Source of the DNA: Candidatus Nitrospira neomarina
Lineage (GTDB): Bacteria; Nitrospirota; Nitrospiria; Nitrospirales; UBA8639
Length of the DNA stretch: 64,000 nt
Direction of reading: 5' to 3'
Assembly (NCBI RefSeq): GCF_032051675.1
Contig: NZ_CP116968.1
Location: 682,001 to 746,000, forward strand
Within the stretch, counting starts at the first letter, position 1. Each line of letters starts with the position of its first letter. Below are positions 19,204 to 50,757 of the stretch, in pieces. Below the pieces are notes generated by a model, which was not told where the DNA came from, ran no database searches, and saw only the letters and a list, made by a program, of their open reading frames with translations. Both the position numbers and the translations under genes were made by a program.

Positions 19204-19299
19204 TCGAAAGAAATGAGGGGAGGTCAGGAGAAACGAGGCATCTGTTGGTTTCACGCTATACGCCTCACACCTCCCGTGTTCCGTTTCACTCTTCACAGA
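19204..19299. repeat. Heptamer inverted-repeat element (copy A)
   Basis: The right arm, 19250-19298, reads as seven consecutive heptamers in register (TTCACGC, then TATACGC, ending TTCACAG). The left arm, about 19204-19239, is degenerate. It lies between fliJ and the MotE-like gene. The frame of the latter stays open through it, which would give a false N-terminal extension. Confidence 0.5.
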
Positions 19300-23726: not shown

Positions 23727-23776
23727 GTCTTAGTGGAATGTTGAACCATCATGTCTCGTGAATGGTGAAAATTAAA

Positions 23777-23917
23777 GCGTAAGGAGTCAAAAGTAAGGGG
23801 TAAAGAGTAAGTAGAAAAGAATACTTGCCTTAATTTGCTGAATGCATCTTTATTTCTCTCTCCTTCCGTTTTTCCTTTCACACTCCGCACTCCTGACTCC
23901 TCACGCCTCACGTTCTC
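23777..23917. repeat. Heptamer inverted-repeat element (copy C)
   Basis: The left arm (23777-23821) runs in sevens as GCGTAAG, GAGTCAA, AAGTAAG, GGGTAAA, GAGTAAG. The right arm (about 23866-23912) has CCTGACT then two CCTCACG units. It lies between the flgE terminator and the fliL promoter. Confidence 0.75.
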
Positions 23918-25796: not shown

Positions 25797-26222
25797 ATGA
25801 GTGAAGACGAGAACATCGACCTGGACACGTTTGATGCTGAGAAGGAAATGATGGAGGCGTTAGCGCAGGAAGCCGCTACGAAAGAACCGAACTCGGCTGC
25901 GAAAAAACAGGAGGTGGCGGCGAGTACCAGCAGTCACACGCCACAATTGAATGGGTCTCATGATCAGAACTTAAATCGAATCCTAGATATTCCGTTGGTG
26001 CTCTCTGCGCAACTGGGCAATACCCGCATGCTGATTAAGGACTTATTGCAGTTAGGACCGGGTTCCATCGTTGAATTGGATAAGCTCGCCGGTGAACCGT
26101 TGGAAGTGTTGGTGAATGAACGGTTAGTTGCGCGTGGTGAGGTGGTGATGGTGAATGAGAAATTCGGCATCCGTCTCACCGATGTGATCAGCCCGACCGA
26201 GCGTGTGAATAAACTTCGATAG
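25797..26222 (+). CDS. fliN: Flagellar motor switch protein FliN
   Basis: FliN forms the lower C-ring and docks FliH during export. The 141-aa product has a variable acidic N-terminus and a C-terminal SpoA domain from about residue 60 (ILDIPLVLSAQLGNTRM, PGSIVELDKLAGEPLEVLVN, then the KFGIRLTDVISPTERV end). It follows fliM at 61 bp. A heptamer repeat element begins two bases after its stop. Confidence 0.95.
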   Translation: MSEDENIDLDTFDAEKEMMEALAQEAATKEPNSAAKKQEVAASTSSHTPQLNGSHDQNLNRILDIPLVLSAQLGNTRMLIKDLLQLGPGSIVELDKLAGEPLEVLVNERLVARGEVVMVNEKFGIRLTDVISPTERVNKLR

Positions 26223-26224
26223 GG

Positions 26225-26351
26225 ACGAAAGGGTGAAGGGTAAAGAGAGAAGGGAAAAGCTAGAAGTAAATAGATAAAAAGTAGAGAACCAGGATAAGAA
26301 ATCTTTTGCTGATTCTCCTTACTCCTCACTTTTTCCTTCGTACTTTCAACG
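26225..26351. repeat. Heptamer inverted-repeat element (copy D)
   Basis: The left arm runs ACGAAAG, GGTGAAG, GGTAAAG, AGAGAAG, GGAAAAG in register, starting two bases after the fliN stop. The right arm, about 26313-26351, is the pyrimidine-rich complement and ends nine bases before the fliO ATG. Confidence 0.75.
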
Positions 26352-26794: not shown

Positions 26795-27570
26795 AGTACC
26801 TCTTGTGCGGGTTTCGTGGAGGAGGTGTCTTTTGGCGATTGTCAGCCATGAGTCTGCTCTTGGGACTGCCCGCCTCGGCTTTTGCCCAGGCCACCAAGGA
26901 TCCCGCGATCAGTTTGCAGGTATCCGGATTGGACGGGACCGAACCATGGACGTTCGGGCTTCGTATTCTCTTTCTCCTGACGGCCTTAACGCTTGCGCCA
27001 GCCCTGTTGATGTTGGTGACGGCATTTACACGCGTCGTGATTGTTCTGGGTCTTCTTCGGCAGGCGTTGGGGACCATGCATGCCCCACCGAATCAGGTGA
27101 TGATTGGACTGGCCATGTTTTTGACCCTGTTTATTATGATGCCGGTGTGGGAACAGATTCGGGTTGAGGCCCTTAATCCGCTATTGGAACAGCAGGTGAC
27201 ACAGGAAGTGGCACTTGATCGGGCCAAGATTCCGTTAAGAACGTTCATGCTGAAACAAGTACGGGAAAAGGATTTGACCTTGTTTGTGGAGATGGCAAAA
27301 GTTCCTCACCCTCAGACGCCCGATGATGTCCCGTTCCATGTCCTGGTGCCGGCGTTTGTCACGAGTGAATTGCGAACGGCGTTTCAAATCGGGTTTCTCA
27401 TTTATGTGCCTTTCCTTGTGATCGATATGATTGTTGCCAGTATTCTCATGTCCATGGGGATGATGATGCTGCCACCGATCATGATTTCGCTGCCGTTTAA
27501 ATTAGTGTTGTTTGTGTTGGCTGATGGATGGTTTTTGGTCGTGGGAGCGCTGATGAATAGTTTTCAATGA
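26791..27570 (+). CDS. fliP: Flagellar export gate protein FliP
   Basis: FliP forms the core of the type III export channel with FliQ and FliR. The 259-aa product has an N-terminal cleavable signal (ending near ASAFAQ), as known for FliP, and four membrane segments. The signature LTAFTRVVIVLGLLRQALG-type stretch lies near 72-90, and FLIYVPFLVIDMIVASILMSMGMMMLPP covers the conserved C-terminal half. It begins with GTG overlapping the fliO stop. A heptamer element follows three bases after the stop. Confidence 0.96.
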   Translation: MKYLLCGFRGGGVFWRLSAMSLLLGLPASAFAQATKDPAISLQVSGLDGTEPWTFGLRILFLLTALTLAPALLMLVTAFTRVVIVLGLLRQALGTMHAPPNQVMIGLAMFLTLFIMMPVWEQIRVEALNPLLEQQVTQEVALDRAKIPLRTFMLKQVREKDLTLFVEMAKVPHPQTPDDVPFHVLVPAFVTSELRTAFQIGFLIYVPFLVIDMIVASILMSMGMMMLPPIMISLPFKLVLFVLADGWFLVVGALMNSFQ

Positions 27571-27573
27571 AAA

Positions 27574-27698
27574 ACGTGAAGCGTAAGGCGTAAGTCGTGT
27601 ATCGAATGCTGAGGTGCAAAGATCGGTTCTTTCTTCTGTCTCCTTACGCTTTACGCCTTACGCCTCGCGGCTTTTCCTTCACGCCTCACGTTTCACAG
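27574..27698. repeat. Heptamer inverted-repeat element (copy E), best right arm
   Basis: The left arm (27574-27594) has ACGTGAA, GCGTAAG, GCGTAAG. The right arm (27642-27697) is eight heptamers in exact register, most fitting CCTYACG or a one-base variant. It starts three bases after the fliP stop and ends 23 bp before fliQ, inside what should be one transcript. Confidence 0.85.
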
Positions 27699-29895: not shown

Positions 29896-30020
29896 ACGGG
29901 AAGCGTGAAAAGCGAGAAGGAAAACGTAAAAAGTAAAAAGAAAGCAGAAAAACAGATTTCCTGCGTTCCTTCTTTACTTTTGACTTCTCACTTTTCACTT
30001 TCCACCCCTTACGTCTCACG
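29896..30020. repeat. Heptamer inverted-repeat element (copy F)
   Basis: The left arm from 29896 runs ACGGGAA, GCGTGAA, AAGCGAG, AAGGAAA, ACGTAAA, AAGTAAA, in register. The right arm to 30020 ends CCCCTTA CGTCTCA CG. It starts two bases after the flhB stop. Confidence 0.8.
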
Positions 30021-30088
30021 AGGTTGAGGAGAGTCATGTGGAACTAAATTACAACCATATGCAACAGCGGTAATCGATCAAGGCACGT

Positions 30089-35242: not shown

Positions 35243-35247
35243 ACATG

Positions 35248-35361
35248 CTTGAGGGGTAAGGCGTGAGGAGTAGGGCTTAAGCAGCCAGAACTTTTCCGTC
35301 ATACCCGACAGGGTTTTTCGAGTATCCATCTTCACGTTTCCCTTGTTACTCAATTCCTGAC
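35248..35361. repeat. Heptamer inverted-repeat element (copy G)
   Basis: The left arm runs CTTGAGG, GGTAAGG, CGTGAGG, AGTAGGG, CTTAAGC, starting five bases after the fliA stop. The right arm (about 35330-35361) is more diverged (CTTCACG, then TTACTCAATTCC). The loop contains GTATCCATC, a string also seen in the interiors of the elements near 50580 and 53900. Confidence 0.65.
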
Positions 35362-35377: not shown

Positions 35378-36586
35378 ATGAAGCAGATGACGACGGAAAA
35401 AGTCCTCGATATGAAAATGCCTCCCGGCGATCCTCTTTATACCATTCTCATTGTAGATGATGAAACAGTTATGCGGATGGTTGCCAAGAAGCGTTTGGCC
35501 AAACTGCCGTGTCGGTTACTGGAGGCCGGTAGTGGGGAAGACGCGCTATCCATCCTGAATCAGGAGCCGGTGGATCTCATTCTTTCGGATTGGGTGATGC
35601 CCGGTCTTGATGGTCCAGGACTGTGTGAAGCGATTAAACAGGATGAACGCTATCGCACGATTCATTTTATCCTGATGACGGCATTGGACCACCCGACACA
35701 AATTGCCGAAGGGCTTAGCCGGGGAGCCGATGATTTCCTATCCAAAACCGCATCCGATCATGAAATTGTCGCCAGAGTGTGCGCGGGCCTTCGAGCCCGA
35801 CAGTTGATGTTGTATGTGGAAAAGTCTAATCGGCTGTTGTCACAGAAGCAGGCGGAATTAGACTCTGAACTCCGTTCGGCCTCCACCTTTGTGCGAGGTC
35901 TCCTCCCCCGGACCGGTGAAGTGATTCCTGGAGTGCGGGTGGAGTGGGAATTTTTGCCGTCTTCACATTTGGGAGGAGATTTTTTTCAGATCGCCCGGTG
36001 GGGAGACGATCATCTTGGGCTCATGGTGTTGGATATGTCGGGGCATGGGATCGGACCGGCGTTGCGGGCCGTGTCGTTATCTTTGCTGTTCAAGGGAGAA
36101 CATATGCAACAATTGTTTCCCTCTTACGATCCGGGCGAGATTCTGACGAGTCTGAACCAACAATATCCCATGAGCGATGAGGGGGATTATTTCACGATCT
36201 GGGTTGGGGTGTGGCAATGCTCCACGCGCAATCTTCGATATGCGAGCGCGGGGCATCCCGGTTCAATTGTTGTGAAAACAGACCGGTCTTCGATGGTGTT
36301 GGGCGGGAAATCCTGGCCTATTGGGTTTTCGCGTAATGAGCTGTATGCAACAGAATCCATCTCGGTGGATTCCGGTGATCGGATGTATCTCTTTAGTGAT
36401 GGGATTTATGAGGTGATGAATTCTCAGGAAGAAATCTGGGGGAGAAAAAGGCTTCAGAAGGCACTTGAGGAGGTCGCCGGACACCCGATGCAGTCGGGAT
36501 TGTCCCGTATTATCGAGCAGAGCCGGACATGGAATGCCAAAGGCGTGTTTGAGGATGACGTCGCGTTACTCGGAGTGGAATTTTAG
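35378..36586 (+). CDS. Response regulator with PP2C/SpoIIE phosphatase domain (HsbR/RsbU-like)
   Basis: The N-terminal receiver domain (about residues 22-140) has the acidic pair VDDE and the acceptor Asp in LILSDWVMPG. A short coiled coil follows (about 145-175), then a SpoIIE-type PP2C phosphatase domain with the metal-binding motifs GGDFF, DMSGHG, AGHP, LFSDGIYE and EDDVALLGVEF. Such proteins dephosphorylate STAS anti-anti-sigma proteins. A STAS gene and a receiver-HATPase gene follow, so the three probably form a partner-switching pathway. GTG 35369 is an alternative start. The closest described parallel is HsbR, which acts near FlgM/FliA in Pseudomonas. Confidence 0.85.
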   Translation: MKQMTTEKVLDMKMPPGDPLYTILIVDDETVMRMVAKKRLAKLPCRLLEAGSGEDALSILNQEPVDLILSDWVMPGLDGPGLCEAIKQDERYRTIHFILMTALDHPTQIAEGLSRGADDFLSKTASDHEIVARVCAGLRARQLMLYVEKSNRLLSQKQAELDSELRSASTFVRGLLPRTGEVIPGVRVEWEFLPSSHLGGDFFQIARWGDDHLGLMVLDMSGHGIGPALRAVSLSLLFKGEHMQQLFPSYDPGEILTSLNQQYPMSDEGDYFTIWVGVWQCSTRNLRYASAGHPGSIVVKTDRSSMVLGGKSWPIGFSRNELYATESISVDSGDRMYLFSDGIYEVMNSQEEIWGRKRLQKALEEVAGHPMQSGLSRIIEQSRTWNAKGVFEDDVALLGVEF

Positions 36587-36594
36587 CGGTGGGG

Positions 36595-36680
36595 GGTGAA
36601 GCGTCAGGAGTGAGGAGATAGAAGCCAGATACTCCTTTAGCCTTATCCCCTCACCTCTTCGTTCCACCCTGACATCTCCC
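36595..36680. repeat. Heptamer inverted-repeat element (copy H)
   Basis: The left arm runs GGTGAAG, CGTCAGG, AGTGAGG, AGATAGA, eight bases after the phosphatase stop. The right arm contains CCTTATC, CCCTCAC and later TTCCACC, ending 17 bp before the next start. Confidence 0.7.
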
Positions 36681-39431: not shown

Positions 39432-39496
39432 ACGTGAAGGGGGTGAAGGGTCTGGCGTGAGGTGTAGTTCTTCTTCCTACGCCTCACTGTTACGGC
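39432..39496. repeat. Heptamer inverted-repeat element (copy I)
   Basis: A short form. The left arm begins CGTGAAG three bases after the MCP-like stop and includes GGCGTGA. The right arm is CCTACGC, CTCACTG, TTACGGC, ending at 39496. Confidence 0.7.
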
Positions 39497-39585: not shown

Positions 39586-39957
39586 ATGGGCAAGACAGTT
39601 TTAGTCGTGGACGATTCCGTCTCGATGCGTCAAATGGTGAGTTTTACGCTGACCGGTGCTGGCTACGAGGTGGTCGAGGCTGGGGACGGAAAAGAAGCCG
39701 TGGATAAGCTCAATGGAGGGGCGAAGCCCAATTTGGTGATTACGGATCTGAATATGCCGAACATGGATGGGATTTCTCTGATTAAGGCCGTACGGGGCAT
39801 GGCCGCCCATAAGTTCACCCCGATTCTTATGTTAACCACCGAGTCATCTGATGACAAAAAGAAAGAAGGCCAAAGTGCCGGAGCCACGGGGTGGGTCGTG
39901 AAACCGTTTAATCCAGAACAAATGTTAGCCACGATTAAGAAAGTACTGCCAGGCTGA
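39586..39957 (+). CDS. cheY: Chemotaxis response regulator CheY (first)
   Basis: This single receiver domain of 123 aa has acidic pocket VVDD (D9, D10), acceptor D54 in LVITDLNMPNMDG, and the conserved Thr (TTESSDDKKK) and Lys (VVKPF). It is the phospho-relay output of the adjacent CheA and should bind FliM. TGAGGTAAAG precedes the ATG. The sequence DLNMPNMDG is of the CheY type found next to cheA in many non-enteric bacteria. Confidence 0.95.
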   Translation: MGKTVLVVDDSVSMRQMVSFTLTGAGYEVVEAGDGKEAVDKLNGGAKPNLVITDLNMPNMDGISLIKAVRGMAAHKFTPILMLTTESSDDKKKEGQSAGATGWVVKPFNPEQMLATIKKVLPG

Positions 39958-39959
39958 GA

Positions 39960-40394
39960 CGTGAGGCGTCAGGGGATAAGGCTTGACACGGGAGGCGAAA
40001 GCTAAAAGGAATCTTGAATAAGCCACATAAAAATTGGATGTATGGAATTTAGCAAGGCAACTTGTGACTGATGTGTACCAAATAACAAAAACTTTTCCTG
40101 AACAGGAGAGATATGGTCTTACCAGTCAGATGCGGCGAGCGGCAGTCAGTATTCCTAGTAATATCGCGGAAGGTGCGGCGCGGCAAACCCCAAAAGAGTT
40201 TATTCAGTATTTGCATGTTTCTCAGGGATCGTTAAGCGAGCTGGATACTCAATTGGATCTTGGGAAACGACTTAGGTGGTTACAGGCAAAGAATGTGAAT
40301 AGACTTGAAAGTGCGAGGAACCGACTAGATAAGATGCTGAGTGGGTTAATCAGGCATCAAAAATCGTCTCACCCCTTACGCCTAACGCCTCACG
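39960..40394. mobile_element. Coding heptamer inverted-repeat element carrying an S23/IVP gene (copy J)
   Basis: The left arm starts two bases after the cheY stop and runs CGTGAGG, CGTCAGG, GGATAAG, GCTTGAC, ACGGGAG, GCGAAAG, CTAAAAG, all in register (39960-40008). The right arm has TCTCACC, CCTTACG, CCTAACG, CCTCACG (40367-40394). Between the arms lies the four-helix-bundle gene. This is the only copy in the window with coding content, so it may be the full-length form of the family, the other copies being empty. No target-site duplication is visible to me. Confidence 0.7.
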
Positions 40395-40435
40395 AAAAGA
40401 TAAATTCTCCGTCCATTCGTAAAGGAGTCGAATAA
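40034..40435 (+). CDS. Four-helix-bundle protein of the S23 / 23S rRNA IVP family
   Basis: The 133-aa frame matches the small helical protein encoded in 23S rRNA intervening sequences of Leptospira and others. Key runs are DVWNLARQLVTDVYQIT, FPEQERYGLTSQMRRAAVSIP and SNIAEGAARQTPKEF. Its biochemical role is unknown; relatives bind nucleic acid or act as retroelement accessory proteins (Avd). The only in-frame start is TTG 40034. One inserted T near 40034 would restore the usual SHxKNLDVW N-terminus, so the start has probably been damaged. No stop occurs at the normal end: the frame runs through the right repeat arm and ends at the cheA start (TAATG). Confidence 0.75.
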   Translation: MDVWNLARQLVTDVYQITKTFPEQERYGLTSQMRRAAVSIPSNIAEGAARQTPKEFIQYLHVSQGSLSELDTQLDLGKRLRWLQAKNVNRLESARNRLDKMLSGLIRHQKSSHPLRLTPHEKINSPSIRKGVE

Positions 40436-42537
40436 TGGCAGTTGATCTCTCACGGTTTCAAGAATCATTTTTTACTGAATCCGCAGAACATGTAGAAACC
40501 ATCGAATCCGGATTGCTGGCGTTAGAGCAACGTCCGAACGACCTGGACTTACTGAATCGAATTTTTCGGGGCGCCCATTCGATTAAAGGGAATGCGGGGA
40601 TGTTTCATTTTACGGCCATTGCCGAGTTGACCCACAAAATGGAAAACATTCTGGATGACCTTCGGAATGAAAAAATGCCCGTGACGCCTCACGTCATCGA
40701 TGTGCTGTTACGGGCGTTGGACGGCTTGAAAAGTCTGTTGGACGCGGCGCAAGGGGGTGACGCGGCAGATGAAGCAGCCATTCACGCCTTAGAAGGTGAA
40801 CTGGAGGCCTGTCAGAAGGGACCGATCGCTTCACATGAGGGGTCTTTAGCTGGAACCGGTCCCCAGGGTTCTTCATCTCAAGCCGCCAGTTGGCGAAAGG
40901 TCCAGATTGATTGGAACGCCTTGCCGGAATTATTTCAACGGGGCATGGATCCGGCCCAGATCTTCAAGGAACTGCGTGAGTTAGGCATAGTGAAGGTGCT
41001 TCATGTGCGAACCGATGGTCTTCCGCCTTTGGACACACTCGATCCAGAACGATGTTATCTCAGTTGGAGAGTGGAATTGGAAACGGATGCCTCTATCGGT
41101 CAGATTGAAGAGGTGTTTGCGTTTGTCCGGGATGGCAGCGAATTAGCCATCATCGATTGCGCACCCAAAAAACCGGAACCCTATAAACGGGTGGGAGATA
41201 TTCTGGTGGAAGAAGGAGTGGTGACTCCGGAGCAAGTCGCCGAAAGCCTGGCCAAGCAAAAGCCTCTTGGCGAAATTCTGGTGGAAGAGAAAAAGGCGTC
41301 TCCCCAACAAGTCGATAAGGCGCTTCAGAAACAGCAGCAACTGAAAAAAAATGAAGTGGCGTCTATTCGGGTCGATACGGAAAAAATCGATAAATTGATC
41401 AATCTGGTGGGAGAGTTGGTGATTACCCAATCGATGATTACGGACCTGAGTGAGAAGTTTACTCTCGCGCAGCTTCCCGTTCTCCAGGAACGGATCACCC
41501 AATTGGAACGCAATACCCGGGAGATCCAGGAACGGGTCATGTCCATTCGGATGATGCCGATCGGCAGTGCATTCCACCGGTTCCCACGGTTAGTTCGGGA
41601 TCTCGCAGGGAAAAGCGGCAAGCAGATTCAATTGGTCATGTCCGGGGAGGAAACCGAGTTGGATAAAACGCTGATTGAGGCGATTGGCGATCCGCTCACC
41701 CATCTGGTTCGCAATTCGGCCGATCATGGGTTGGAGTTACCCGAAGACCGGGTGGCTCAAGGCAAGCCGGAGCGAGGAACCATTCGCCTTCATGCGTATC
41801 ACGATGGCGGGAGTATTTGTATTGCCGTGGAGGATGACGGGCGCGGATTGAACCGGGAAAAGATCATTAAAAAAGCCGTCGAAAAGGGGATTATTGCGGA
41901 TGGCAGCAATATGTCGGATGAAGCCGTATATCAACTGATTTTTCGTCCTGGATTTTCCACGGCGGAGACCATCACCGATGTGTCAGGTCGAGGGGTAGGG
42001 ATGGATGTGGTGAAGCGAAATATCGAAGGTCTGGGTGGGTCAGTGGACATTCAGAGCACGATGGGCAAGGGTTCCCGGCTCACGCTGAAATTGCCGCTCA
42101 CGCTGGCCATTATTGACGGGATGACTGTCCGGGTCGGTCAGGATAACTACATTATCCCGCTTATTGCGGTCACCGAATCCATTCGCCCTAAACCTAATGA
42201 GTTGCAACGGATCGTGGGAAAAGGCGAGGTGGTCAATCTTCGTGGAGAATGGGTGCCGGTGGTCAAGCTCTATGAAGCGTTTACCCTCACGCCAGACTTT
42301 ACCGATCCCTCGCAGGCTTTGTTGGTGATCGTGGAAACCGATGGTCGGCGATTGGCCGTGCTCGTGGATGAACTGACCGGCCAACAACAAGTGGTCATTA
42401 AGAGTTTGGAGCAAAACTTTCGCAAGGTCGAGGCTATTTCCGGAGCCACAATTCTGGGGGACGGGCAAGTGGCTTTGATCTTGGATGTACCGGGATTGGC
42501 CAAATTGGCACGGGTTGGCCACATTGCGGCGGCGTGA
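40435..42537 (+). CDS. cheA: Chemotaxis histidine kinase CheA (first)
   Basis: This is the 700-aa core kinase. P1 (Hpt) has H48 in GAHSIKGNAG. A P2-like domain lies at about 155-240. P3 begins near residue 310 (IDKLINLVGELVITQS). The P4 ATPase has NSADHGLE, EDDGRGLN and SGRGVGMDVVKRNIE. P5, the CheW-like regulatory domain, starts near 560. Between P2 and P3 lie two tandem short units (VGDILVEEGVVTPEQVAES and LGEILVEEKKASPQQVDKA), like the repeats seen in GspE-type N-domains. The ATG follows AAAGGAGT. Partners are cheY, cheW and the downstream MCPs. Confidence 0.96.
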   Translation: MAVDLSRFQESFFTESAEHVETIESGLLALEQRPNDLDLLNRIFRGAHSIKGNAGMFHFTAIAELTHKMENILDDLRNEKMPVTPHVIDVLLRALDGLKSLLDAAQGGDAADEAAIHALEGELEACQKGPIASHEGSLAGTGPQGSSSQAASWRKVQIDWNALPELFQRGMDPAQIFKELRELGIVKVLHVRTDGLPPLDTLDPERCYLSWRVELETDASIGQIEEVFAFVRDGSELAIIDCAPKKPEPYKRVGDILVEEGVVTPEQVAESLAKQKPLGEILVEEKKASPQQVDKALQKQQQLKKNEVASIRVDTEKIDKLINLVGELVITQSMITDLSEKFTLAQLPVLQERITQLERNTREIQERVMSIRMMPIGSAFHRFPRLVRDLAGKSGKQIQLVMSGEETELDKTLIEAIGDPLTHLVRNSADHGLELPEDRVAQGKPERGTIRLHAYHDGGSICIAVEDDGRGLNREKIIKKAVEKGIIADGSNMSDEAVYQLIFRPGFSTAETITDVSGRGVGMDVVKRNIEGLGGSVDIQSTMGKGSRLTLKLPLTLAIIDGMTVRVGQDNYIIPLIAVTESIRPKPNELQRIVGKGEVVNLRGEWVPVVKLYEAFTLTPDFTDPSQALLVIVETDGRRLAVLVDELTGQQQVVIKSLEQNFRKVEAISGATILGDGQVALILDVPGLAKLARVGHIAAA

Positions 42538-42615
42538 AACCGTGAGGCGAAGCAGACGCGGGGCGTGAAGAAAAAGACAGCTTTCCCCCTCACGCCTTAC
42601 GCGTCACGCCTTATG
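42532..42615. repeat. Heptamer inverted-repeat element (copy K)
   Basis: The left arm starts at or inside the cheA stop: the TGA is part of GGCGTGA, followed by CGTGAGG at 42541 and GGCGTGA again. The right arm runs CCTCACG, CCTTACG, CGTCACG, CCTTATG (42588-42615). Confidence 0.75.
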
Positions 42616-43293: not shown

Positions 43294-45531
43294 ATGAACA
43301 GGATGGTGAACACAATTTTCAGTTTGGGAATTACAACCAAGTTGGTGGTGTTGTTCGCCATCTTTGGCATTGTCCCGATGGCCGCGGTGGGGTACTTAGG
43401 ATCTTCGGCTACCGGGGAAATGGAAACCGCTGCCGGTCTGCGTGTGCAAGCCATGGCGGAGACGATCGGGGATAAAATCGACCGGAATTTGTTCGAACGG
43501 TATGGGGATCCTCAATCCTTCGGACTCAACAGGATTGTGGGTGAACGCTACCATTGGTATAGCAAGGAGAATAATGCCATTGCGAGTGCGATGAACCAGT
43601 ACGTTGCGACATCCGGTATTTATTATTTGACGATACTGGTAGACCCGGTTGGAGATGTGATGGCCGTCAACTCCAAGGATGCGAACGGGAATCCGATCGA
43701 CACCACGGCAATTTATTCCAAGAAATATTCGGACGCCCCGTGGTTTAAGGCGATGGAAGCCAAAGAATTTACCACCAAACAACCCTTTACCGCTCCCGGC
43801 AATGATAGGGCGACCGGGACCTTCATTGAGGACGTCCATGTCGATGAAGATGTGAAATCGGTGTATTCGGGAGATGACGGATTAACCTTGGGATTTTCTG
43901 CCCCGGTGTATGTGGATGGCGATCTGATCGGGTATTGGAGCAACCGGGTCAAGTTTTCTCTGGTAGAAGAAATCGTGCAGACCGCGTATCAAGAGCTGAA
44001 AGGGGCCGGATGGGCCGGATCGGAAATTTCTCTGCTCGGTGATAAGGGACAGGTTCTTGTGGATTATGATCCTTCCAATCAAGGCACAGAGGACATGACC
44101 CATGATTTTGAAAAAACATTGTTTAAACTCAATCTCGCCGAAACCGGGATAGAAAGCGCACAATTCGCCGTTGCCGGGAAAACAGGCTATCAATTGGCGC
44201 TCCATGACGGGAAGAACATCTGGCAAATGGCTGGATATACCCATCTGAAAGGCGCCTTAGGCTATCCGGGGATGAATTGGTCGGTCCTGGTTAGAGTGCC
44301 AAAAGCCGAAGCTACGGCTGCGGCCATTGCCTTCAATCGAAATTTAATCATGACCGCTATTATTTGTCTGGTTTTGATTCTGGTTGTCGGATTGTGGGTT
44401 GGGCGACGCGGGGCTCAGAGTCTGGTTCACATCAGCGAGGTGGCCCAACGGGCGGCTGATGGAGATTTGAGTCGGCGCGTCACTGTGACATCCCATGATG
44501 AATTAGGAAGCATGGGTAAGGCCATGAATGCCATGTTGGATAATTTGGTGAAAGTGGTGTCTGAAGTCCGCCAAGCGGCGGAACATGTCTCCACCGCGTC
44601 AGGTGAAATCACCCAAGGCAATGAAGACCTTTCGCAACGCACCTCGGCCCAGGCGGGCGCTTTGCAGGAGACCAGCGCGTCAATGGAGGAGATGACGTCT
44701 ACCATCAAGCAAAATGCGGATAATGCCAAACAGGCCAATCAATTAGCCGTCGCGGCCCGTGAAGTGGCGGAGAAGGGGGGGGCGGTCACGGACAAGGCTG
44801 TGGTGGCCATGGATGAGATTAATAAGAGCAGCAAGAAGATCGCGGATATAATCAACGTGATCGACGAAATTGCCTTCCAAACGAATCTCCTGGCTTTGAA
44901 TGCCGCCGTGGAAGCGGCACGGGCGGGCGAGCAGGGACGGGGTTTTGCGGTGGTGGCCTCGGAAGTACGGAATCTGGCGCAACGTTCGGCGTCGGCTGCC
45001 AAGGAGATCAAGGCCCTGATCAATGAATCGGTGCAAAAGGTAGGTGACGGCAGCGAGTTAGTGAATCGCTCGGGCCAGACGCTGGGCGAGATTGTAAATT
45101 CGGTCAAACGGGTGACGGATATTATTTCCGAAATCAGTGCGGCGTCCCAGGAGCAGGCGGCGGGGATCGATCAGGTGAATAAGGCGGTGATGCAGATGGA
45201 TCAGGGCACGCAGCAGAATGCGGCCTTGGTGGAAGAAGCCACGTCGGCTTCCCAGTCCATGAAGCAGCAGGCAGCGGAACTGTTGAATCAAGTCGCGTTT
45301 TTTAAGTTAGAAGAAACAGGTCACCGGCAGTTTGCAGGAGTCAAACGCGGAACTGGAGCCACGTCTGGGTTATCAAGCGGCAAAAAGACTTCCGCTATGA
45401 GTCAGCCCATACAATCGGTGAAGGCTGCCTCTCCTCCAAAATCAACGGCTAAGTCTCAACCGGTTGGGGTGGGCAGCTCGAATGGCCATGATCGGCGTCA
45501 ACGTGAGAACGATTTTTTTGAAGAGTTTTAG
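43294..45531 (+). CDS. Methyl-accepting chemotaxis protein with periplasmic Cache domain
   Basis: The 745-aa receptor has membrane segments at about 8-30 and 349-370. A long periplasmic double-Cache-type sensor lies between them ([31 protein letters not shown]). A HAMP domain follows ([22 protein letters not shown]), then an MCP signalling hairpin with the tip [21 protein letters not shown]. After a Ser/Pro/Lys-rich tail it ends in NDFFEEF, which fits the x-[HFYW]-x-x-[HFYW] form of CheR-tether pentapeptides. Its signalling domain is nearly identical in DNA to the next gene (see repeat entries). Confidence 0.93.
44758..45234 (+). repeat. Long direct repeat within MCP signalling domain (copy 1)
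   Basis: About 477 bp here reappear at 46599-47075 (offset 1841) with only scattered, mostly silent differences. It codes the methylation helices and hairpin tip. Flanking domains of the two genes are unrelated, so this looks like a domain duplication or gene conversion. Confidence 0.85.
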
Positions 45532-45572: not shown

Positions 45573-47381
45573 ATGGGGAAAGTTTGGCATTCAATAGGCA
45601 TTGGTCCAAAAGTGGTAATGACTATTATGGTGGTCTTCTCGGGGTTGTTGGCTGCGGGAGCATACTTGCTCGGTCAGCAGTTGCATTCGGATCTTGAACG
45701 GGTCTTATCCGATCAGGCCTATATTGTTCAAAAACAAATAGAGGTCACGCGTGCCTATGTGACCAAAGAGTTTGTGGTAAAAGCCAAGGCGGCAGGGATG
45801 AACACCGGCGTGGATCATAGTGCACCCGATACGATTCCCTTTCCGGCCACATTTGCTCGTGAAACCTCTGAGCTCTTAGCTGAGGAAGGCGTCTTCAATG
45901 CCCGGATCGTGAGTCTCGCGCCCTTGAATCCCAAAAATGCTCCGCAAGATACCTTTGAGAAAGAAGCCCTTGTTGCCCTCGCCAACGGTCAAAAAGAATT
46001 TACTAAAAACGATACCGTGAATGGGAAAATGATGTTCCGCCGTGCGACCCCGGATTTGGCGACCGCTCAAGCCTGTATCGGCTGTCATGAGGGTAAAAAA
46101 ATCGGGGATATGTTGGGAGCGGTATCAGTACAGATTCCCATGGATGGTCCCGCGGCACAATTACAAGGGAATCTCAGCAATATGTATATGGGGATTCTGG
46201 CCGTGGGTGTTTTGATGATGGGGCTGTTGTATCTGATGATTGCGAAGTTGGTGGTCCAGCCGATGAAGAGTCTGGAGTCTATGGCCGTGCGAGCTAGGGA
46301 CGGAGATCTCACCGGTCGGGCCAGCGTGAACAGTCAGGACGAAATCGGCCGAACCAGTGAGTCGTTTAATATGATGTTTGACCGGGTGAGTGAAGTGATT
46401 GCGTCTGTAAAAACCGCTGTGTCCGGTATTACGACCGGAACGTCGGAGATTAATGCCGGAACCTCGGATCTCGCCGGGCGAACTTCGGCGCAAGCGGGAG
46501 CCTTAGAAGAAACCAGTGCCTCCATGGAAGAGATGACCTCTACCATTAAACAGAATGCGGATAACGCCAAGCAGGCGAACCAATTAGCGGTGGCTGCCCG
46601 TGAAGTGGCGGAGAAGGGTGGGGCGGTCACGGACAAGGCCGTAGAGGCCATGGATGAGATTAATAAGAGTAGCAAGAAGATCGCGGATATTATCAACGTG
46701 ATCGATGAAATCGCCTTCCAAACGAATCTCCTGGCTTTGAATGCCGCCGTGGAAGCGGCACGGGCGGGGGAGCAGGGACGAGGATTTGCGGTGGTGGCCT
46801 CGGAAGTACGGAATCTAGCGCAACGTTCCGCCACGGCGGCCAAAGAGATTAAGACGCTGATCAACGAATCGGTGCAAAAAGTTGGGGGTGGCAGTGAGTT
46901 GGTCAATCGCTCGGGCCAGACGCTGGCCGAAATTGTGAACTCGGTCAAACGGGTGACGGATATTATTTCCGAAATCAGTGCGGCGTCCCAGGAGCAGGCG
47001 GCGGGGATCGATCAGGTGAATAAGGCGGTGATGCAGATGGATCAGGGCACACAGCAGAATGCGGCCTTGGTGGAACAGGCGACCTCGGCGTCCCAGTCGA
47101 TGGCACAACAAGCTGAGGATTTGTTGCGGCAGGTCGAATTTTTCAAGGTCCAGACTGAGTTGGGAACTCAACGTTCGGAGACCACACCAAAAACCCGCGC
47201 ATCTGTTCACGCTCAATCGACCGGCGGAACGGGGTCTCAATATTCTCGTGCGGTCTCGTCGATAACTGGCGCAGCTCAGGGAAAGCATTCTCCCAATAAA
47301 AGAGAGGTCGCTGTGGGTGTTGGGAGCTCGGCGTCCAACGGGCATAAAAAGTCCGGGGATGATTTTTTTGAAGAATTCTAA
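45573..47381 (+). CDS. Methyl-accepting chemotaxis protein with c-type haem sensor domain (DUF3365/Tll0287-like)
   Basis: The 602-aa receptor has an N-terminal membrane segment (about 14-33) and a periplasmic domain of the Tll0287-like/DUF3365 type ending in a haem-binding C168-I-G-C171-H172. Conserved FRRATPDLATAQACIGC and LGAVSVQIPMD surround it. A second membrane segment lies at about 205-225, then HAMP and an MCP signalling domain. Haem suggests sensing of redox state, oxygen or NO. The C-terminus is DDFFEEF, like its neighbour. AGGAGG precedes the ATG, 41 bp after the previous receptor. Confidence 0.92.
   Translation: MGKVWHSIGIGPKVVMTIMVVFSGLLAAGAYLLGQQLHSDLERVLSDQAYIVQKQIEVTRAYVTKEFVVKAKAAGMNTGVDHSAPDTIPFPATFARETSELLAEEGVFNARIVSLAPLNPKNAPQDTFEKEALVALANGQKEFTKNDTVNGKMMFRRATPDLATAQACIGCHEGKKIGDMLGAVSVQIPMDGPAAQLQGNLSNMYMGILAVGVLMMGLLYLMIAKLVVQPMKSLESMAVRARDGDLTGRASVNSQDEIGRTSESFNMMFDRVSEVIASVKTAVSGITTGTSEINAGTSDLAGRTSAQAGALEETSASMEEMTSTIKQNADNAKQANQLAVAAREVAEKGGAVTDKAVEAMDEINKSSKKIADIINVIDEIAFQTNLLALNAAVEAARAGEQGRGFAVVASEVRNLAQRSATAAKEIKTLINESVQKVGGGSELVNRSGQTLAEIVNSVKRVTDIISEISAASQEQAAGIDQVNKAVMQMDQGTQQNAALVEQATSASQSMAQQAEDLLRQVEFFKVQTELGTQRSETTPKTRASVHAQSTGGTGSQYSRAVSSITGAAQGKHSPNKREVAVGVGSSASNGHKKSGDDFFEEF
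46599..47075 (+). repeat. Long direct repeat within MCP signalling domain (copy 2)
   Basis: This is the partner of 44758-45234. The two stretches can be aligned without gaps over about 477 bp and differ at only scattered positions. Confidence 0.85.
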
Positions 47382-48937: not shown

Positions 48938-49777
48938 ATGATGACAGCAATGTTGACGGACAAAGAATTTGAACTGTTTAAGCATCTGATTTATCAGCAG
49001 GTTGGTATCAAACTGGATGGGCCAAAAAAAACTCTCTTAGTGTCTCGTTTGGGAAAAAGGCTTCGGGATCTTCACCTTTCCTCCTATCAAGCTTACTACG
49101 ACTGCGTAAGTGGGGAAGGCGGGGAAGAGGAGCTCATCAAATTGCTGGATCTGGTGTCGACGAATAAGACGGAGTTTTATCGGGAGCCGGTGCATTTTGA
49201 TTTTCTTCGAGACCAGGTTCTTCCAGAGGTGCAATCGTCCAAGACCTTAAGAATTTGGTCTTCTGCGTCATCTTCCGGTGAGGAGCCCTATACGATTGCC
49301 ATGAGCTTGTCTGATGCGATTCCCGATATCAATCGATGGGACATCAAAATTCTCGCCTCGGATATTTCTACACGGGTGTTGGCAAAGGCCTCTTCGGCTA
49401 TTTATGAGGAAGAGCGGGTCAGTCAACTTCCCAATGATCTGGTGAAACGACATTTTCTCCGAGGGAAAGGTCCGCAGGCGGGAAAACTGCAAGTGCGCCC
49501 TCAGGTCGCGCGTCTTGTGGCCTTTCGACGGATAAACTTAATGGATCCGACATTTCCCATACGCAGTCAACTGGATGTGATTTTTTGTCGGAATGTCATG
49601 ATTTATTTCGATCGTCCCACCCAAGCCAAGCTCATGGAGAAGTTTTTCCGATACCTCCGGCCTGGAGGGTATTTATTTATCGGACATTCAGAAAGTTTGC
49701 AATGGATTGACCATCAATTTACGTATCTGCGCCCAACCATTTATCAAAAACCGGTCGGTGTGAATAGTAAGGCGTAA
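48938..49777 (+). CDS. cheR: Chemotaxis methyltransferase CheR (first)
   Basis: CheR methylates receptor glutamates using S-adenosylmethionine. The 279-aa product has the helical N-terminal domain (EFELFKHLIYQQVGIKLDGPK split over 7-30), then the SAM-binding fold with RIWSSASSSGEEPYTIAM and the IFCRNVMIYFDRPTQ motif. I chose ATG 48938, preceded by AAAGGA; TTG 48920 is upstream in frame. The last codons (Ser-Lys-Ala-stop) are supplied by heptamers AGTAAGG and CGTAAGG of a repeat element. Confidence 0.94.
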   Translation: MMTAMLTDKEFELFKHLIYQQVGIKLDGPKKTLLVSRLGKRLRDLHLSSYQAYYDCVSGEGGEEELIKLLDLVSTNKTEFYREPVHFDFLRDQVLPEVQSSKTLRIWSSASSSGEEPYTIAMSLSDAIPDINRWDIKILASDISTRVLAKASSAIYEEERVSQLPNDLVKRHFLRGKGPQAGKLQVRPQVARLVAFRRINLMDPTFPIRSQLDVIFCRNVMIYFDRPTQAKLMEKFFRYLRPGGYLFIGHSESLQWIDHQFTYLRPTIYQKPVGVNSKA

Positions 49778-49846
49778 GGGGGGTGAGAAGTGGAGAAGAA
49801 AGCATTCAACCCGTTTCTCCTCGGCTTGACGGTTTACCCCTTAAGG
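49766..49846. repeat. Heptamer inverted-repeat element (copy M), overlapping the cheR stop
   Basis: AGTAAGG (49766-49772) and CGTAAGG (49773-49779) contain the cheR stop codon. The right side ends ACCCCTTAAGG just before the cheD ribosome-binding site. The insertion has therefore set the C-terminus of CheR. Confidence 0.65.
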
Positions 49847-50510: not shown

Positions 50511-50757
50511 GATAAGGAGAAAAGCGTGAGGCGTAAAGAGGAAAGGCATTCTTCGTCCTATCCGCAGATCGTTAGCGGATATCCATTCAAAAAGGGGTAA
50601 GATGGCTTCCCGGGGAGACCTGGCAGCCAGGACGAAGCAGGTGCAAAGAAGAAGGGTTTTCATAGTAAGGAGTCAAGACAACAGAAAAAAGAGTTCAGGG
50701 ATCAAAATGCTACCGGAGATTTTTTTCCAACTTCTGACTTTTCACTCCTTTAGTAGG
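50511..50757. repeat. Long heptamer inverted-repeat element (copy N)
   Basis: The left arm (50511-50545) runs GATAAGG, AGAAAAG, CGTGAGG, CGTAAAG, AGGAAAG. The right side has CTTCTGA, CTTTTCA, CTCCTTT (50731-50751). About 185 bp separate the arms, with no coding frame but with TAGCGGATATCCATTC, which recurs almost unchanged near 53910. It fills most of the cheD-cheB gap. Confidence 0.6.

Follow-up and report, generated by a model that had tools for sequence, protein, structure and literature searches.

Genes of the S23/IVP family and the two inverted arrays of degenerate heptamers that bracket them form, we are very confident, one evolutionary unit, which recurs across Bacteria. The case that we describe lies in a stretch of 64,000 nucleotides of Candidatus Nitrospira neomarina (contig NZ_CP116968.1, positions 682,001 to 746,000; hereafter the window, with coordinates counted from its first letter), where the spacer between cheY and cheA holds, as read from the sequence, one S23/IVP gene between a left arm CGTGAGGCGTCAGGGGATAAGG that starts at 39960 and a right arm CCCCTTACGCCTAACGCCTCACG that stops at 40394. 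An earlier note on this DNA had proposed that these arms flank exactly one gene and that this gene belongs to the S23/IVP family; the arm coordinates and profile searches confirm both points, with 127.9 bits for PF05635 against a cut-off of 33.8 and 124.8 bits for TIGR02436 against a cut-off of 24. The cassette is about 430 bp long and contains no transposase, and apart from its gene nothing in the 4.80-Mb genome matches PF05635.

The association of gene and arms was examined in 80 S23 loci from 80 contigs of many phyla, together with 24 loci from the order and several loci on cyanobacterial plasmids. A profile of nine diverse S23 proteins, intended for the scan of the collection, was dropped, having no conserved stretch; because its replacement was built from four closer S23 proteins, one subfamily is over-represented among the 80 loci. 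An inverted-arm score of at least 30 was reached by 53% of 77 loci, compared with 4% when flanks were swapped between loci and 5% for neighbouring open reading frames (ORFs; p about 5e-16), and flank autocorrelation, computed for 76 S23 loci, is raised only at lags 7, 14, 21 and 28. A period-7 array is present in at least one flank of 64 of these 76 loci and in both flanks of 52, whereas control windows from the same loci yield 4.9%; the claim that arms and S23 gene form a recurrent unit between protein genes is thereby upheld, and S23 genes elsewhere do not generally lack arms, the outcome that would have spoken against it. More distant S23 genes from the order, scored apart, reached at least 27 for their inverted arms in 8 of 12 cases. 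Array density amounts to 3294 per Mb within 250 nt of S23 and declines to about 210-310 at 2-4 kb. Over the range 0.25-4 kb, in which a weaker halo persists, it is six to fifteen times lower than in the nearest 250 nt, while the other periods stay low throughout the distance profile except for a smaller rise of period 8 adjoining the gene. Certain S23 elements have arms of period 8 or 9 in place of 7. Judged by eye, the loci L272, L281-L284 and L286 (Geobacter, Flavobacterium, Psychroflexus) carry arms of period 6, 8 or 9 that are still self-matched.

The heptamer differs between elements, even within one genome, and yet the two inverted arms of each element match: among 20 elements of six genomes, a score of at least 28 was reached by 65% of an element's own arms as opposed to 1.7% for other elements of the same genome (p 3e-11). 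The earlier expectation that CGTRAGG arms would accompany S23 thus stood as regards inverted heptamer arms, which occur well beyond chance, and failed as regards CGTRAGG itself, which is not general; the heptamer being private to each element, a search for CGTRAGG near S23 would miss most of the effect.

Gene and arms also change together at fixed sites. At three recurrent sites, namely cheY-cheA, trxB-thiI and accB-accC, the S23 genes of related species have different, self-matched arms, the vocabularies being CGTGAGG or GAGAAGT/GTGAAAG at cheY-cheA, CGTGAGG or CGTGAAA at trxB-thiI in Nitrospira, and GGGAATC, GGGATTC or GTGATTG at accB-accC in Lysobacterales. In genomes G005 and G006 the CheA proteins are 96% identical, S23 is 61% identical and the arms are different; G000 and G019 likewise share 96% CheA identity and carry different element types. 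These contrasts indicate that gene and arms are exchanged together and that the two arms remain matched to each other as the heptamer vocabulary changes. The closest S23 to that of G019 is that of G006, whose arms are similar. With regard to the sites themselves, S23 recurs at accB-accC in Lysobacterales (L084, L089, L099, L115, L118), with an arm vocabulary that shifts between congeners, and in the trxB-thiI spacer (L243-L267) most Nitrospira without S23 carry at the same spot an unrelated palindromic element of ~130 nt (CAGGATGCTCAAAATGG...CCATTTTCAGCATCCTG), often in two versions. A near-identical S23 gene on two Calothrix plasmids was considered as a case of element movement and rejected: the annotated neighbours are common to both plasmids as well, which points to a larger duplicated segment.

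The cassette is inserted in the sense orientation in the spacers of operons, either at the stop codon of the upstream gene or directly behind it. Between co-directional neighbours, S23 lies in sense orientation in 51 cases and in antisense in 3 (p 3e-12), the rare orientation being seen, for instance, on a Nostoc edaphicum plasmid (L237, 1986-2354), where an S23 gene with GGGAGTA arms stands antisense between the genes of the two ribonucleotide reductase subunits. The 5' arm is rich in purines, its stop codons are twice as frequent as in its complement, and at trxB the stop codon is part of the arm. The S23 gene is under purifying selection in five orthologs at trxB-thiI, with dN/dS of 0.07-0.19 where computable; the protein is therefore functional at that site. 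All S23 loci that were read, in many phyla, lie outside ribosomal RNA (rRNA). By visual inspection of the reading frames on either side, S23 cassettes are frequent in polysaccharide gene clusters (rfbB/rfbA/rfbD, wecB, ABC exporters; L056, L059, L062, L063, L065, L068, L073, L075, L085, L113), and a Pseudanabaena galeata plasmid (L236, 1998-2357) has one with AGCTAAA/AGCCAAA arrays in a CRISPR-Cas operon between cas6 and cas4.

In the window, the parts of the cassette and its neighbours are as follows.

39586..39957, plus strand: upstream neighbour, a cheY-like response regulator (PF00072)
39960..39999, plus strand: left (5') heptamer arm, CGTGAGG CGTCAGG GGATAAGG CTTGACA CGGGAGG CGAA (sequence, period-7 scan)
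40014..40033, plus strand: N-terminal S23 codons (NKPHK), out of frame through a one-base loss in an A run (comparison with G002)
40034..40435, plus strand: S23/IVP four-helix-bundle ORF, 133 aa, TTG start (PF05635, TIGR02436)
40370..40394, minus strand: right (3') heptamer arm CACCCCTTACGCCTAACGCCTCACG, ending CCTTACG CCTAACG CCTCACG (sequence, period-7 scan)
40435..42537, plus strand: downstream neighbour, cheA (CheW, H-kinase_dim, Hpt, HATPase_c)

The conserved S23 domain covers ~40034-40345 and ends before the right arm; the tail of the ORF reads through that arm, and its stop at 40435 overlaps the cheA start. As called, the ORF begins at an internal TTG. The relative in G002 reads MKKPHKKLDVW... 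and has AAAAAA where the window copy has AAAAA, so that the first ~8 S23 codons are out of frame through the loss of one A from a run of six, although the missing base could possibly be a homopolymer sequencing error. The S23 protein of G005 is a relative of PDB 2gsc (E 6e-31). In the predicted RNA fold of the cassette the left arm pairs with the right arm; the whole cassette folds only slightly better than shuffles (z -1.8), although its ends do pair. An Rfam scan of the window found no known RNA.

Heptamers are not confined to the cassette. The window has 36 exact copies of CGTRAGG where 12.8 would be expected, and 0 of 100 shuffles reach 36; its period-7 arrays number 10, whereas the remaining periods between 5 and 11 have 0-1 each. 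The other inverted or single arrays lie in the spacers of one co-directional flagellar/chemotaxis operon (window 19-50 kb) and are listed here with no strand assigned.

19250..19297: single heptamer array (period-7 scan)
23757..23912: gene-less inverted heptamer hairpin (RNA fold z -3.5)
26221..26350: gene-less inverted heptamer pair (fold z -1.2, not significant); the ortholog spacer of G014 and G017 is 27-31 nt long and the array is absent from it
27559..27690: gene-less inverted heptamer hairpin (fold z -4.5)
29896..30022: gene-less inverted heptamer hairpin (fold z -4.0)
35245..35281: single heptamer array (period-7 scan)
36582..36633: heptamer array in a spacer whose G014 ortholog is 49 nt long
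39449..39489: short gene-less inverted pair upstream of cheY (sequence)
42541..42615: gene-less inverted heptamer hairpin after cheA (fold z -5.2)
49760..49786: heptamer array that in G002 is lengthened into a full hairpin
50511..50543: heptamer array (sequence)

Four of the five window hairpins tested by RNA folding are far better than shuffles. Elsewhere in the window, the 300-nt stretches 44638-44937 and 46479-46778, 1841 nt apart, are 89% identical and probably reflect neighbouring duplicated chemoreceptor-like genes or recent conversion.

In this genus, gene-less hairpins of related sequence gather around S23, and their sharpness and number track its intactness. In terms of density, taken from sampled stretches, there are 156-533 arrays per Mb around S23 in G000, G002, G005 and G006 against 0-35 per Mb elsewhere; in the organism's own genome 64 kb hold 10 arrays and 380 kb elsewhere hold 3. 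Genome-wide counts of CGTRAGGCGTRAGG are 2, 21, 8, 43, 45 and 7 with intact S23 (that of G000 being frameshifted), as opposed to 0-2 in ten genomes in which S23 is decayed, lost or absent (p 6e-4), the intact and decayed states being scattered on the cheA tree. The gene-less members proposed in the earlier note are thus real, their number follows S23 intactness, and in this genus they are not common where S23 is missing. In shared spacers the arrays are sharper in G002, which has an intact S23, than in G000, G014, G017 and G019 (p 0.0004-0.003), and in one spacer a hairpin stands directly after the stop codon in G014 and is absent from four relatives.

The reading that we favour, and hold to be reasonably probable, is that S23 and its arms form a self-contained element lacking a transposase, whose arms S23 would maintain or spread and of which the gene-less hairpins would be satellites. 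The element would be selfish. S23, a homolog of Avd, would bind the arms, which it would probably meet as a hairpin in the transcript of the operon or as exposed single-stranded DNA, and would promote template switching or slippage between them; this would hold the arms mutually complementary while their sequence drifts, would expand the 7-base units and would occasionally seed gene-less hairpins in nearby spacers. Stop codons built into the arms (GTGA/GTAA) would let the element end the upstream gene cleanly. The parts of this proposal differ in strength: S23-dependent upkeep of the arrays is as probable as the whole, mobility, including an occasional landing in 23S rRNA that would yield an intervening sequence (IVS), is favoured by a slight balance, and an RNA-level step, suggested by the sense bias and the homology to Avd, is tentative. 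A reverse transcriptase (RT) is not required for the element, there being none in three S23 genomes.

Several observations weigh against this proposal. In Nitrospira UBC2 (G042) S23 is full-length and the gene-less halo is absent, so that S23 alone is not sufficient for satellites. Comparisons of intact with decayed S23 are few and phylogenetically correlated, and the halo tracks one long flagellar/chemotaxis operon, which leaves room for a local cause that has nothing to do with S23. By the autocorrelation and array test, 12 of the 76 S23 loci are without a period-7 array. No transposition event was seen among the compared loci, each gain being readable as losses in relatives, and no clear target-site duplication was seen by eye in filled versus empty sites at two loci and several spacers. 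The cheY-cheA arms persist for a long time beside decayed S23 genes, and in Coxiella S23p is seemingly not made in vivo (PMC4990558).

The strongest alternative, although an unlikely one, is a host-selected regulatory or RNA-processing module, in which S23 would be an RNA-binding operon regulator and the arms and hairpins its binding sites or RNase III sites, with nothing selfish about them. The sense orientation in operons and the purifying selection agree with such a role, as do hairpins that are stable as RNA (z -3.5 to -5.2) and orthologous sites conserved across genera; however, many close relatives keep cheY and cheA intact and have a decayed S23 or none, the host operons are unalike (chemotaxis, thiI, accBC, polysaccharide and cas genes), and the arm sequences have no site in common. 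Somewhat less credit goes to the idea that the arrays are independent, host-made tandem repeats of the type of the cyanobacterial short tandemly repeated repetitive (STRR) sequences, between which S23 merely prefers to insert. Gene-less arrays do outnumber S23 genes, a right-arm-like sequence is kept at empty cheY-cheA sites, and arrays of GGGAATC in Xanthomonas and GGGGATT in Nostoc are known with no mention of S23 (PMC4692102). A mere landing pad is nevertheless hard to reconcile with a separate heptamer for each S23 element of one genome, with arms that change along with the gene at the same site, with the lack of any other array in 140 kb sampled of G042, or with the scarcity of arrays where S23 is decayed or missing.

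That the element is an intervening sequence which left 23S rRNA for operons, as the earlier note had supposed, is improbable. The protein family and the inverted repeats are the same, and the Coxiella IVS likewise has heptamers before its S23 ORF (PMC4990558), but the loci read, being all outside rRNA and in many phyla, give no indication of a direction from rRNA to operon; an IVS in rRNA may just as well be an element that came to land there. The part of the organism's own 23S rRNA that was read, the 3' part (model 1932-2912), has no insert. An RT-dependent relative of the diversity-generating retroelements (DGRs), with S23 in the role of Avd, can be set aside as very improbable: the sense bias and weak matches to bAvd and Avd are in its favour, but the latter score under their cut-offs (25.2 vs 40 and 27.7 vs 80 bits), RVT_1 has no match in G000, G042 or G044, and unit-to-unit substitutions track base composition without adenine bias.

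Among known systems, intervening sequences lie inside helix 9, 25 or 45 of 23S rRNA, have terminal inverted repeats that form a stem, and are excised by RNase III. The cassette resembles those of Leptospira and Coxiella, which have an S23/IVP ORF, in that such an ORF stands within terminal inverted repeats capable of forming a stem; it differs in lying between cheY and cheA instead of in a 23S helix, in having heptamer arrays as arms and in having gene-less relatives nearby. Repetitive extragenic palindromic (REP) sequences with their REP-associated tyrosine transposases (RAYTs), and the bacterial interspersed mosaic elements (BIMEs), combine gene-less intergenic hairpins with a small gene that has copies of these repeats on either side, the RAYT being a tyrosine (Y1) transposase; here, in contrast, the enclosed gene encodes an S23 four-helix bundle with no RAYT, and the arms are not one fixed sequence. 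The likeness to the DGR accessory protein Avd (bAvd) is one of distant protein homology, unaccompanied by an RT partner in three S23-bearing genomes or by adenine-directed variation.

As for heptamers described before, the 23S IVS of Coxiella has tandem GACAGAT units upstream of the S23 ORF (PMC4990558), and the inverted GGGAATC pairs of Xanthomonas and the GGGGA(C/T)T heptamers of Nostoc are reported not to be associated with mobile elements in general (PMC4692102). The latter and the cyanobacterial STRRs resemble the present arrays as head-to-tail 7-mers in spacers, often in inverted pairs, but are described without an associated gene, whereas the S23 arrays bracket a gene and vary by element. 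The S23 arms of Luteimonas and Dokdonella fugitiva are GGGAATC, and those of a Nostoc plasmid are GGGAGTA-like. The TAACTGA repeats of Beggiatoaceae are abundant intergenic heptamers whose carrier is not known (PMC4679880), and they differ in being direct rather than inverted and a single fixed heptamer, with S23 unmentioned (PMC4679880). Our literature search, the coverage of which excluded subscription journals, found no paper that links S23 with heptamer arms, and there is a real chance that the element deserves a class of its own. More tentatively, S23 cassettes may constitute a domain-wide class of minimal mobile elements, each ending in heptamer arrays of its own that match each other and that S23 keeps in concert, with rRNA IVSs as rRNA-resident forms and the cyanobacterial STRRs and Xanthomonas GGGAATC repeats as gene-less ones.

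Structures have been solved for the widespread S23/IVP family, no function is known for it, and the heptamer arms are its first general genomic context. Terminal repeats that differ from copy to copy and yet match within each copy are a poor fit to a transposase that reads a fixed sequence. The tie between S23 and the arms unites oddities that have been described separately, namely rRNA IVSs, cyanobacterial STRRs and Xanthomonas heptamers, and it opens the origin of heptamer repeats in bacteria to direct tests.
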